This document shows positions 25,595-51,270 of a DNA stretch of 64,000 bases, piece by piece. The translations under genes and the position numbers were made by a program. This DNA comes from Acidobacteriota bacterium (GTDB lineage Bacteria; Acidobacteriota; Thermoanaerobaculia; UBA5066; Gp7-AA6): the NCBI GenBank assembly GCA_027307335.1, contig DAHUXD010000052.1, positions 1 through 64,000 of the forward strand. The letters are read 5' to 3'. Every line of letters begins with the position of its first letter. The stretch's first letter is position 1. The notes below the pieces were generated by a model, which was not told the DNA's origin, did not search any database, and worked only from the letters and a program-made list of their open reading frames with translations.

Positions 25595-27154
25595 TCAGCG
25601 CGTCAGCGTCTCGTCGTAGAACTTCGCCAGGTCCGTCTTCAGCTTCGCGAGCGACGGCTCGTTCAGGTAGATCATGTGACCCGAGGGGTAGTACCCGAAC
25701 ACGACGTTCTTCTCGAGCGACGGGTCGAGCCCCATGTGCCCGAGCGTGAACTCGGTCTCGAAGAAGGGCGTCGCGAAGTCGAAGTAGCCGTTGGCCGAGA
25801 AGATGCGCAGGTGCGGGTTCATCGACATGACGAGACGCAGGTCCTCCGCGACGTCGGGCATCGGCGCGCGCCCCGTGTCGGTCCGGTGCCGGTCGTCCCA
25901 GTCCTTGCCGACCTCCTCGTAATTGGTCGGCTTGTACAGGTCGTCCGTCTTGTAGCCGAGCGTGCCGCGCAGGTAGGCGTTGGCCGTCGCCGTGAACGCT
26001 CCCATGAACGCGGCGCTCGCCGCGTCGAACTCGGGGTTCTCGCCGGCCGCGTCGTGATCGATGCCGCGGTAGCGCGCGTCGAGCCGCCCGATCGTCCGGC
26101 GCTCGCCGCGGAGGAGCTCCTTCTCGAAGCGGTTCGGGTCGATGCGGAGGTTCGCCTGGAGGATGTACGCCTCGGGCAGACCCGTGTAGCGGTGGAGCTT
26201 CGCGGCGATCGGCGCGCGCGCGGCCGCGTCGAGACGGCTGCCCTGCGCGAGCGCCCGCGCGTAGTCGCCGAGCGCGAACGCGCGGACCTCGTCGAGAAAC
26301 GGCGCGAGGTCCCCGGGCATCGGGTCGAGCCGCTTGTGGTACCAGGCCGCCGCCGCCATCGTCGGCAGGTAGAGCTCGTACGCGCGGTCGTTCGAGAACG
26401 GAGGGCCGTTGAAGTCGTCCCACGCGTTCAGGTACGAGGAGATGAAGATCGCGCCGTTGAAAGCGATCCCGTGGCGCTCGAGGTACGCCAGGAGCGCCGC
26501 GCCGCGCGTCGTGCCGTACGACTCGCCGAGCAGAAACTTCGGGGAGTTCCAGCGGTTGTTCGCGCTGATCCAGCGCTCGATGAACTGCGCGAACGCGGCG
26601 ACGTCCTGGTCGGTGCCGTAGAAGTCCTTGCCCTCGCCCTTGCCCACGATGCGTGAGAATCCCGTGCCGACCGCGTCCACGAAGACGAGATCGGTCCGGT
26701 CGAGGAGGCTCTGTCCGTTCTCGACGAGCCGGTACGGTGCGGGCGCCGCGGGGGCCGCGTCCGGCGTCTCGACGCGCATGGGTCCGAACGAGCCCATGTG
26801 GAGCCACAGGCTCGAGGAGCCCGGGCCGCCGTTGAAGCAGAAGGTGACCGGCCGCTGCGCCGGGTCGGCGCCGTCGGCCGTGTAGGCGACCGAGAACATG
26901 CGCGCGACCGCCTCGTCCTTGGGATTCTTCAGGTCGATCGTCGAGGCCGTCGCCGTGTAGGCGAGCGGCTTTCCGCCGAACGTCATGCGCCGATGCGTCA
27001 CGGCCGGCGCGGGCGCCGCCGGAACCGGCGTGGGCGAGACGGCCGGCTCCGCCTTCTTGTCGCCCTTGGCGTCCTCCTGCGCCAGGGCCCCCGCGGCCAG
27101 CGCCGCCGCGAAGCCCGCCGCGAGCGCACCCCTCCGAACTCCGCCCGATCTCAT
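25595..27154 (-). CDS. Exported S10-family serine carboxypeptidase
   Basis: A 519-residue secreted alpha/beta-hydrolase peptidase. The signal peptide is MRSGGVRRGALAAGFAAALAAGALAQ. The S10 core shows FNGGPGSSSLWLH (oxyanion region), the nucleophile in LLGESYGTTRGAAL, the Asp region FSANGYFDFATP and the His in YPSGHMIYLNE. It removes C-terminal residues from peptides in the periplasm or outside. A Shine-Dalgarno (GGGGAGAGG) precedes the ATG at 27154. A linker of about 30 residues after the signal is rich in Ala, Pro, Lys and Glu. Confidence 0.92.
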   Translation of the reverse strand: MRSGGVRRGALAAGFAAALAAGALAQEDAKGDKKAEPAVSPTPVPAAPAPAVTHRRMTFGGKPLAYTATASTIDLKNPKDEAVARMFSVAYTADGADPAQRPVTFCFNGGPGSSSLWLHMGSFGPMRVETPDAAPAAPAPYRLVENGQSLLDRTDLVFVDAVGTGFSRIVGKGEGKDFYGTDQDVAAFAQFIERWISANNRWNSPKFLLGESYGTTRGAALLAYLERHGIAFNGAIFISSYLNAWDDFNGPPFSNDRAYELYLPTMAAAAWYHKRLDPMPGDLAPFLDEVRAFALGDYARALAQGSRLDAAARAPIAAKLHRYTGLPEAYILQANLRIDPNRFEKELLRGERRTIGRLDARYRGIDHDAAGENPEFDAASAAFMGAFTATANAYLRGTLGYKTDDLYKPTNYEEVGKDWDDRHRTDTGRAPMPDVAEDLRLVMSMNPHLRIFSANGYFDFATPFFETEFTLGHMGLDPSLEKNVVFGYYPSGHMIYLNEPSLAKLKTDLAKFYDETLTR

Positions 27155-27203: not shown

Positions 27204-27278
27204 GCGCGTCCGCGCGCTTCCTCTCGCTGCGCGTCAGCGCGCTTCCTCTCAGGGCGCGTCAGCGCGCCCCGCGGTAGA
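27204..27278. repeat. 25-bp tandem repeat, three units
   Basis: GCGCGTC begins units at 27204, 27229 and 27254. The units share GCGCGTCNGCGCGC followed in the first two by TTCCTCTC. The third carries the amidohydrolase stop codon (27259-27261). Confidence 0.7.
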
Positions 27279-28575
27279 TCCGCCCGTCCTTCATCACGAA
27301 GGAGACGCTCTCGAGCGCCCGCACGTCCGCGAGCGGATCGCCCGCCACGGCGATGACGTCGGCATAGGCGCCCGGCGCGACGACGCCGAGCTCGCCCTTC
27401 TTCCCCAGCATCTCCGCCGCGCGCGACGTTGCGGTCTGGATCGCCTCCATCGGCGTCAGGCCGAATTCGACGAGCCGCGGGAACTCCTGCGCGATCGGCT
27501 GCGTCCACGGAAAGCCGCCGACGTCCGTGCCGAACGCGATCTTCACGCCCGCCCTGACGGCGCGCCGGAGCGAGGGTCCGTGCACGGCGGCGCGCTTCCG
27601 GTCGCGGTCGCCCTCCGGCGTGCCCTCGGGCGCCCAGTCGCCGTAGTAGACGCTCATCGTCGGCACGAACCAGGTCCCCTGCCGGACCATCTGCGCGACC
27701 GAGCGGTCGTCGAGGTCGAGCCCGTGCTCGATCGAGTCGCAGCCTCCGTCGAGCGCGCGCTTCAAGCCGATGCCGCCGTACGCGTGGCAGGCGACCTTGC
27801 GGCCCCAGCCGTGCGCCTCGTCCACGACGGCCTGCAGCTCCTCGAGCGTCAGCGTCGGCTGCGAGACGAGATTGCCCGAGGCGTCGAGCCACGAGCGGTG
27901 CGTCATGTACACCTTGATCCAGTCGGCGCCGTTCGAAAGCTGCTCGCGCGCGGCCTTGCGCGCCTCGACGGGGCCGTCGACGAGCTGCGCGCCCTTCGGC
28001 ACGTCGATCTCGGGCGCGTAGCCCTCGAGCGGATAGCCGCCGGTCGTCGAGATCGCGCGCGTGACGACGAACATCCGGGGACCCGGGATGTAGCCGCCTT
28101 CGATCGCCTGCTTGATCCCGAGGTCGCCATAGCCCGCGCCCTCGGTCTCGACGTCGCGGATCGTCGTGAAGCCCTGCTCGAGCGCGCGCCGGGCGGCCAC
28201 GGTGGCCCGGGCGGCCCGAAACGCGATGCCCTGCTTCAGGAGCTGCACGTCGTAGCCGCCCTCGGCCGGCACCTCGCCCTGCAGGAAGATGTGCGTATGC
28301 GTGTCGATCATGCCGGGGAGGACGGTCGAGGACGAGAGGTCGACGAGCGTCGCGCCGGGCGACACGCTCCCCGTCCACGGTCCGACGCTCTCGATGCGGT
28401 TGCCGCGCACCACGATCGCCTGATCGCGCCTCGGGCCCGGCGAGACGCCGTCGATGAGCACGCCGGCGTGGACGACCGTCTGAGCGGGGGTCGGCGTCGG
28501 AGCCGGCGCAGCGCCGGCCGCGGCCCAGGGAGCGAGCAGGCCGATGGCCGCGATGAGCCGCGGGGAACCTCCCAT
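27259..28575 (-). CDS. Exported metal-dependent amidohydrolase (imidazolonepropionase-like/prolidase group)
   Basis: A 438-residue amidohydrolase with signal peptide MGGSPRLIAAIGLLAPWAAAGAAP. The metal-site motifs are PGMIDTHTHIFL, the lysine region ADWIKVYM, VACHAYGGIG (His), SIEHGLD (His) and IAFGTDVGGFP (Asp). Family members hydrolyse peptides or amide metabolites. I use the ATG at 28575 rather than 28623 because it places the signal peptide at the N-terminus and leaves both upstream palindromes (28606-28620, 28637-28651) outside the coding region. These match the two palindromes upstream of lexA in sequence and spacing. The stop lies in the third unit of a 25-bp tandem repeat. Confidence 0.88.
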   Translation of the reverse strand: MGGSPRLIAAIGLLAPWAAAGAAPAPTPTPAQTVVHAGVLIDGVSPGPRRDQAIVVRGNRIESVGPWTGSVSPGATLVDLSSSTVLPGMIDTHTHIFLQGEVPAEGGYDVQLLKQGIAFRAARATVAARRALEQGFTTIRDVETEGAGYGDLGIKQAIEGGYIPGPRMFVVTRAISTTGGYPLEGYAPEIDVPKGAQLVDGPVEARKAAREQLSNGADWIKVYMTHRSWLDASGNLVSQPTLTLEELQAVVDEAHGWGRKVACHAYGGIGLKRALDGGCDSIEHGLDLDDRSVAQMVRQGTWFVPTMSVYYGDWAPEGTPEGDRDRKRAAVHGPSLRRAVRAGVKIAFGTDVGGFPWTQPIAQEFPRLVEFGLTPMEAIQTATSRAAEMLGKKGELGVVAPGAYADVIAVAGDPLADVRALESVSFVMKDGRIYRGAR

Positions 28576-28605: not shown

Positions 28606-28620
28606 CCGAATAAAATTAGG
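28606..28620. promoter_or_regulatory. Palindrome CCGAAT-AAA-ATTAGG, amidohydrolase-proximal
   Basis: First of two 6-3-6 palindromes upstream of the amidohydrolase, ending 31 nt before its ATG at 28575. It matches the lexA-upstream sites with one changed base in the left arm. Confidence 0.6.
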
Positions 28621-28636
28621 CATTTCGACGAACTAT

Positions 28637-28651
28637 CCTAATAAAATAAGG
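28637..28651. promoter_or_regulatory. Palindrome CCTAAT-AAA-ATAAGG, amidohydrolase-distal
   Basis: Second palindrome, exactly 31 bp from the first. It differs from the distal lexA site (51108-51122) at one position only. Confidence 0.65.
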
Positions 28652-28654
28652 CTC

Positions 28655-29413
28655 TCAGTCGCCCGGGACACTCAGCTCGGCGGCGCGGCGAAGCCCCTCG
28701 AGCGTCCGGACGCCGTGCCAGCAGAAGTCGTCCCCCTCGACGAAGAGCCGCCGCGTGTGCCCCCCGAAGAGCCGCTCGACGAGCGCGCCGTGCTTCTCCT
28801 CCGAGAACGGATACGGCTCGCTCGCGAAGATGTGGACCTGGGGCTCCCGGGCGAGCGCCTCCGAGGGGTGCGTCGTGGGATATCGCGTCCTCTCCGCCCC
28901 GTAGACGTTCTCGCCGCCGGCCAGGCGGAGCAGGTCCGCGACGTAGGTGTCGTCCGAGATCGTCATCCACGGGTCCTTCCAGATCCAGTACGCGTAGCGA
29001 AAGCGCGGGCGTGCGGGGCGGTCCTCGAGCTCCTTCCACGCGCTCTCGATGCGCGCCGCCAGCGCATCGGCCTCGGCGTCGGTGCCGAGGCGCCTCCCCC
29101 AGTTCCGGATGGCCGAGGGGACCTCGGACACCGTCTTCGGCAGCGTCACGTCGACCTCGACGCCGGCCTTGCGCAGCGCCTCGACGTCCTCGCGGCGGTT
29201 CTCCTCGGCGTTCGCGAAGACCAGATCCGGGGACAGATCGAGGATGCGAGAGATCTCCGGGCTCTTCGTGCCGCCGACGCGCGGCAGCCCCCACAGGATT
29301 CCGCTCGGACGGGTGCAGTACCGCGTCACGCCGACGAGGGCCCGACGCCCCCCGATGGCCACGATCGTTTCGGTGATGGACGGGCAGAGGGATACCACCC
29401 GCTGGGCCGGCAC
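28655..29413 (-). CDS. BtuF/FepB-like helical-backbone metal receptor, no signal peptide
   Basis: A 252-residue protein of the periplasmic-binding-protein-like TroA superfamily: VVSLCPSITETIVAIGG, VGVTRYCTRPSG, VGGTKSPEISRILDLSPDLVFA, DTYVADLLRLAGGENVYG and FASEPYPFSEE. Such proteins bind cobalamin or iron chelates for ABC importers. The N-terminus (GTG, MPAQRVVSLCP) has no signal peptide and no permease or ATPase is nearby. A cytoplasmic or orphan role is therefore possible. A TAGACT hexamer lies 7 nt before the GTG, in the 43-bp gap shared with the divergent AAA ATPase. Confidence 0.85.
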   Translation of the reverse strand: MPAQRVVSLCPSITETIVAIGGRRALVGVTRYCTRPSGILWGLPRVGGTKSPEISRILDLSPDLVFANAEENRREDVEALRKAGVEVDVTLPKTVSEVPSAIRNWGRRLGTDAEADALAARIESAWKELEDRPARPRFRYAYWIWKDPWMTISDDTYVADLLRLAGGENVYGAERTRYPTTHPSEALAREPQVHIFASEPYPFSEEKHGALVERLFGGHTRRLFVEGDDFCWHGVRTLEGLRRAAELSVPGD

Positions 29414-50461: not shown

Positions 50462-51070
50462 TCAGCGCAGGCCGTGGGCGTAGTCGCGGATCAGGCCCGT
50501 GACGACGCCCTGGATCATGACGTCGCGCGCATCGAAGGTGAGCGGTTTCATGGCCGAGTTCGCGGGCTGGAGGCGGACGCGCTGGCCCTCGGTGTAGTAC
50601 CGCTTGAGGGTCGCCTCTCCCCTCACGAGCGCGACCACCGTCTGTCCGCTCTCGGCCTTCTCGCGACGCGAGACGACGACGAAGTCGCCATCGAGAATTC
50701 CGTCCTCGATCATCGATTCGCCGCGGACGCGCAGGACGAAGTGATCGCCCTTTCCGAGGAGGGACGACGGCACCTCGATCGACTCCTCCTGGGGGAAGGG
50801 CTCGATCGGCCGGCCGGCCGCGACGAGACCGAGCAGCGGCACGCCGCGCGAGACGGAAGGCTCCTCCTTCGGCGCGATGCCCCGGCTCCGGTTCCACTCC
50901 CGCGCGAGCGCCCCCTTCTCCTCGAGGCGCTTCAGGTGCTTCTGGACGGTCCCGAACGAGGAGAGCTTGAAGGCCTCCCGAATCTCCCGTTGTGTCGGTG
51001 AGATTCCGTGCTCCACCCGGTACGTGCGGATGAAATCCAGGATTTCCTTCTGACGCTTGGTTAGATTCAT
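50462..51070 (-). CDS. lexA: SOS repressor LexA
   Basis: A 202-residue LexA: N-terminal winged helix (LTKRQKEILDFIRTYRVEHGISPTQREI), recognition helix around SSFGTVQKHLKRLEEKG, cleavage site A85-G86 (GLVAAGRP), and the catalytic dyad S119 (GESMIEDG) and K156 (GEATLKRYY). The recognition helix differs from both the E. coli and Bacillus forms, in keeping with a different operator. Two CCTAAT-N3-ATWAGG-like palindromes lie 6 and 37 nt before the ATG and are the obvious autoregulatory sites. Confidence 0.95.
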   Translation of the reverse strand: MNLTKRQKEILDFIRTYRVEHGISPTQREIREAFKLSSFGTVQKHLKRLEEKGALAREWNRSRGIAPKEEPSVSRGVPLLGLVAAGRPIEPFPQEESIEVPSSLLGKGDHFVLRVRGESMIEDGILDGDFVVVSRREKAESGQTVVALVRGEATLKRYYTEGQRVRLQPANSAMKPLTFDARDVMIQGVVTGLIRDYAHGLR

Positions 51071-51076
51071 AGTCGT

Positions 51077-51091
51077 CCTAACTTCATTAGA
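51077..51091. promoter_or_regulatory. Candidate LexA box CCTAAC-TTC-ATTAGA, lexA-proximal
   Basis: Imperfect 6-3-6 palindrome whose edge lies 6 nt before the lexA ATG, placed to block transcription or initiation of lexA. Confidence 0.6.
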
Positions 51092-51107: not shown

Positions 51108-51122
51108 CCTAATTAAATAAGG
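51108..51122. promoter_or_regulatory. Candidate LexA box CCTAAT-TAA-ATAAGG, lexA-distal
   Basis: Second site, exactly 31 bp upstream of the proximal one (three helical turns). Both sites would lie on about the same face of DNA. Confidence 0.65.
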
Positions 51123-51270
51123 CCGAGGGAACCACCGCGGCCGTCCGGAGGCCTCACCGGATCGGCCCATCGGCCTTGCCATCTATATAGGCGCAAAAGA
51201 GGCGTAAGTCAAGCGCCGTCGCACGGCACTCTCTGCCTCGCCGCGGTGGGCCTGACATCATCCCCGCCGC

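Follow-up and report, generated by a model that had tools for sequence, protein, structure and literature searches.

The 64,000-nucleotide stretch analysed here (the window) carries a gene for an exported, M38-like amidohydrolase, preceded by a codirectional gene for a periplasmic binding protein and followed by one, also codirectional, for a serine carboxypeptidase-like protein (Table 1). The best NCBIfam match of the amidohydrolase is Xaa-Pro dipeptidase, at 339 bits and under the model cut-off of 500, and its product is predicted to be an exported enzyme resembling Xaa-Pro dipeptidases. Between the stop of the upstream gene and the amidohydrolase start, and hence in intergenic DNA, lie two palindromes, CGAAT-AAA-ATTAG and CTAAT-AAA-ATAAG, with a start-to-start distance of 31 bp; translation from the alternative upstream ATG would put palindrome 1 within the ORF. 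A reading of the window from its sequence alone (the sequence-only reading) had reported these twin palindromes and their duplication, in sequence and phasing, before lexA. Both observations hold, since the lexA gap also has two palindromes 31 bp apart, and no further 31-bp pair was found in the window. Both palindromes are present as described, with two corrections: the core common to the amidohydrolase and lexA sites measures 13 bp, arranged 5-3-5 as CTWAT-N3-ATWAG, and the amidohydrolase probably starts at the ATG at 28575. A chance origin had been judged unlikely, and the counts agree: single sites give 8 strand-matches in the window at up to two mismatches, compared to 0.88 expected and with 0/100 shuffles as high, and the genome-wide search for pairs yielded none in the reversed control.

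Table 1. Genes, palindromes and direct repeats discussed in the text (positions refer to the window unless a contig is given; a dot marks sites without strand).
Feature	Position	Strand	Remarks
Serine carboxypeptidase-like gene	25595..27154	-	PF00450; downstream of the amidohydrolase
Exported amidohydrolase, M38-like	27259..28575	-	likely ATG 28575; alternative ATG 28623
Palindrome 1, CCGAATAAAATTAGG	28606-28620 (core 28607-28619)	.	proposed Lrp/AsnC regulator dimer site
Palindrome 2, CCTAATAAAATAAGG	28637-28651 (core 28638-28650)	.	31 bp from palindrome 1
Periplasmic binding protein gene	28655..29413	-	PF01497; upstream of the amidohydrolase
lexA	50462..51070	-	TIGR00498 above cut-off; PF01726 and PF00717
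lexA palindrome nearest the ATG, CCTAACTTCATTAGA	51077-51091	.	
Second lexA palindrome, CCTAATTAAATAAGG	51108-51122	.	31 bp further upstream
Direct repeat TTACGCC-TCTT-TTGCGCCTA	51188..51207	-	proposed LexA operator; within the lexA promoter
Direct-repeat sites for lexA, imuA-imuB and dnaE2	window 51188-51207; G000:C11:849; G000:C48:52807	- (window site)	
Perfect palindrome pair	C9:22787		before an Lrp/AsnC-family gene divergent from dnaJ
Palindrome pair	C63:76430		exported esterase after folD
Palindrome pair	C41:52752		recO/MFS intergenic region

Distribution of the palindrome pair

In the 4.37-Mb genome (G000), the 31-bp pair occurs at six places with up to three mismatches, and the reversed control gave none. 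The best match genome-wide stands before an asnC-type gene (G000:C9:22851); with the symmetric pattern, this pair and that of the amidohydrolase are the only two in the genome with zero mismatches. The match at C51:15430, downstream of glnA, was set aside: it belongs to an intrinsic terminator hairpin whose sequence imitates the 31-bp pair. This hairpin also occurs at G001:C28:16749 and is a false positive for pattern searches. The match at C46:25520 was left out, being weak and not palindromic. The asnC-type product matches PF13404 (HTH_AsnC) and PF01037 (AsnC_trans_reg) as well as solved Lrp structures (PDB Lrp 2gqq, E=3e-29), and the nearest named records with an ortholog are Acidobacteriota MAGs, several of them labelled Thermoanaerobaculia.

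When 19 genomes of the order are searched with the symmetric pair pattern at no more than one mismatch, nearly all hits precede asnC or lexA, and the controls give none; the 128 genomes from the rest of the class give scattered matches at roughly the control rate. At asnC, the pair in family f1 is perfect and covers the -10 region in G000 and G001, and has perfect boxes at 32 bp in G002, the promoter TTGACA-16-TATTAT overlapping box 1 in three genomes; in family f3 it reads CATATAAAGTTCG-31-CGAATTTTATATG, with box 2 ending in the start codon. The gene keeps its pair despite changed neighbours (dnaJ alongside in f1, a different upstream gene in f3). Moreover, the sequence between boxes varies though the spacing stays, and the copies have no flanks in common.

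The lexA pair is present in two families, with box 2 at the start codon in most f3 genomes, and its 31-bp spacing stands out among lexA regions. In a phylogenetic tree, 16 asnC orthologs form a clade of their own (support 99/98), to which the homologues of G003, G004 and G012 do not belong. A lexA gene with the 31-bp pair at up to one mismatch occurs in 11 of the 13 genomes with this clade vs none of the three without (each at least 96% complete, two belonging to one genus; Fisher p 0.018, not corrected for relatedness). In G001 and G002, asnC is present but the lexA pair has decayed to 2 and 3 mismatches. Since G003, G004 and G012 share their LexA recognition region, SSFGT(V/L)QKH, with genomes that have the pair, absence of the lexA pair where asnC is missing indicates that the pair tracks asnC rather than LexA.

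The orthologs of the amidohydrolase gene in G001 and G002, both of family f1 and 76% and 78% identical in an in-frame comparison, lack the palindrome pair and have different gene neighbourhoods, so that among the genomes compared the amidohydrolase appears to be a lineage-specific target particular to this genome. Conservation in orthologous gaps, to which the sequence-only reading had looked as a check, is thus seen at lexA across two families and not at the amidohydrolase.

A direct repeat as candidate LexA box

The lexA promoter, read by eye as TTGACT-17-TATATA, contains a direct repeat, TTRCGCC-N4-TTRCGCC, of 11-bp period. With up to three mismatches this repeat is present in 16/16 lexA promoters of the order, in most of them immediately following the -35 element's TTGAC. 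Within the genome, perfect copies stand at lexA and at an operon for a RecA-like protein (ImuA) and a Y-family polymerase (ImuB), and a copy with one mismatch at dnaE2; a fourth match falls inside a gene and is likely due to chance, and matches with two mismatches are no commoner than in controls. The genes lexA, imuA-imuB and dnaE2 make up the classical SOS mutagenesis set (PMC9578287), and the direct repeat that marks them is therefore the best candidate for the LexA operator. It has the same 11-bp period as the Caulobacter LexA operator, GTTCN7GTTC, but another half-site sequence, and the likeness concerns this repeat and not the palindrome pair. A predicted LexA box lets the SOS regulon of this group be listed; a report of an acidobacterial LexA box was not found in open-licence papers. 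Because recA has neither the palindrome pair nor the direct repeat, it may lie outside the SOS regulon here.

The direct repeat was not found in the amidohydrolase, asnC, esterase or recO/MFS gaps. If the palindromes were LexA sites, the sequence-only reading had argued, a secreted hydrolase would belong to the SOS regulon. This is not supported: the amidohydrolase lacks the repeat of lexA, imuA-imuB and dnaE2, and the pair that it does carry is no operator common to the core SOS genes, being absent from imuA, dnaE2 and recA. Nor do all relatives that share this LexA DNA-binding domain have the pair at lexA (G003, G004 and G012 lack it), and its absence there in each genome without the asnC ortholog, though the recognition helix is unchanged, argues against LexA as its binder.

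Palindromes and LexA-box-like repeats adjoin at two other loci. At G005:C94 (L220:2690-2785) a zero-mismatch pair lies ~50 bp from such a repeat, before a gene for a 682-aa protein with no Pfam match, and at G000:C7:170531-170563 (L183), upstream of an mraZ-like gene, a weak repeat of this type is overlapped at its edge by a lone palindrome, CCTAAAAAAATTAGG.

An Lrp/AsnC-family regulator as candidate binder

The paired palindromes are probably the operator of one Lrp/AsnC-family (feast/famine) regulator, with the asnC-type product of G000:C9:22851 as the presumed binder. The alternative left by the sequence-only reading, that a second regulator controls both genes, thereby gains a candidate that marks its own gene: a regulator with an AsnC-type HTH and a RAM/ligand domain is encoded, its own promoter carries the sites, and these are multiple short palindromes (13 bp) set three helical turns (31 bp) apart. 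Lrp-family sites form clusters spaced two or three helical turns, and FL11 of Pyrococcus binds a 13-bp palindrome (PMC2995911), whose consensus, ATAAA-ATT-TTTAT, has the 5-3-5 layout found here; the target of PA2577 of Pseudomonas aeruginosa contains CCTGATAAAAAAGG, close to CCTAATAAAATAAGG (PMC8707732). FL11 and PA2577 differ in their targets (an EamA-like transporter for PA2577) and are without a link to lexA. The arrangement also resembles the Ss-LrpB operator of Sulfolobus, in which short palindromes at regular intervals precede the gene of the regulator itself and bind one dimer each, and in whose family two- or three-turn spacing goes with cooperative binding and wrapping (PMC2995911); unlike that archaeal system, with three sites in its own control region, there are two sites here and lexA is also marked.

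Other explanations have to be weighed against this one. LexA itself might be expected to bind a pair that stands directly before lexA in two families, autoregulation of lexA being common, and the G005 pair does adjoin a LexA-box-like repeat. However, with the direct repeat present in every one of the 16 lexA promoters as well as upstream of imuA-imuB and dnaE2, with imuA, dnaE2 and recA devoid of the pair, and with lexA of G003, G004 and G012 lacking it while LexA keeps an essentially identical recognition helix, we find it quite improbable that the palindromes are LexA operators through which lexA is autoregulated and that asnC and the amidohydrolase gene are SOS genes. Some other regulator could instead bind the pair and control asnC, lexA and the amidohydrolase, with the AsnC-type protein as no more than a target; its tie to the site is indirect, and an asnC gene that is an obligate target would give the same co-occurrence. 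We hold this to be unlikely given the perfect pair at asnC overlapping the asnC -10, the family-typical combination of a 13-bp 5-3-5 palindrome with three-turn spacing, and the loss of the pair from lexA in genomes without this asnC.

That the palindromes often lie at or over a start codon, and that lexA of G010 has two copies, would suit a role as RNA hairpins close to where translation begins, or dispersal by a repeat element. Yet box 1 of asnC overlaps the -10 and so would not be fully transcribed, and it is the spacing that is kept, not the sequence between boxes, in copies without common flanks; either origin seems extremely improbable. For the amidohydrolase pair taken by itself, a chance likeness without function might be read from its absence in the two closest orthologs, but is very unlikely for an intergenic pair in which both boxes have zero mismatches at exactly 31 bp, when the reversed control gave 0 in 19 genomes.

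With the Lrp/AsnC-family protein as binder, one dimer would occupy each 13-bp palindrome, and the 31 bp from centre to centre, or three helical turns, would set two dimers on one DNA face, from which we propose that they bind cooperatively. At asnC, an upstream box over the -10 hexamer suggests that the protein is an autorepressor there. At lexA, the pair follows the promoter assigned to LexA control and either shortly precedes or covers the start codon; there it would act as a roadblock, so that a metabolic signal could block or tune lexA transcription. From the short gap behind the codirectional gene, the amidohydrolase pair would gate transcription of that enzyme's gene. A sigma-70 scan of the amidohydrolase and lexA gaps gave no consensus promoter over threshold; with no recognised promoter at the amidohydrolase, its pair may halt transcription running in from the gene upstream or else mask a weak promoter. 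For all three proposed operators we infer the binding protein, whether it represses or activates, the signal that it senses and where transcription begins. Peptide use, to which the dipeptidase-like enzyme and its carboxypeptidase-like neighbour point, would suit a feast/famine regulator.

The level of lexA is usually thought to be set by LexA itself and by DNA damage. On balance we lean towards a model in which a feast/famine regulator, whose tiny conserved regulon consists of itself and lexA, governs the amount of SOS repressor by way of an operator pair separate from the LexA box, nutrient state setting the SOS threshold, and in which single lineages add targets such as the exported dipeptidase-like hydrolase. 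If true, a metabolic regulator acting on its own gene and on lexA would be a direct link between nutrition and SOS, in bacteria known largely through metagenomes; open-licence papers yielded no report of lexA being controlled by an Lrp/AsnC protein. The AsnC-lexA link is a more general and more interesting result than the amidohydrolase site.

The lexA region has further peculiarities. Its leader (window ~51110-51190, minus strand) contains a GC-rich and hairpin-capable stretch, GGCCGATGGGCC ... GGCCGCGGTGGTTCCCTCGGCC, that is conserved in the corresponding leader of G001-G004; an Rfam search of the leader gave no match. In G010 (L046), the pair and the lexA start are tandemly duplicated with an 81-bp period. 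In four genomes (G013, G014, G016 and G017; L170, L171, L173 and L174) a second pair lies ~160-190 bp upstream of the lexA pair, and in G013, G014 and G017 this further-upstream pair scores best, the one adjacent to the ATG being weaker; looping or separate control is possible. A sigma-factor-like gene is divergent at the far-upstream pair in G013 and G014.
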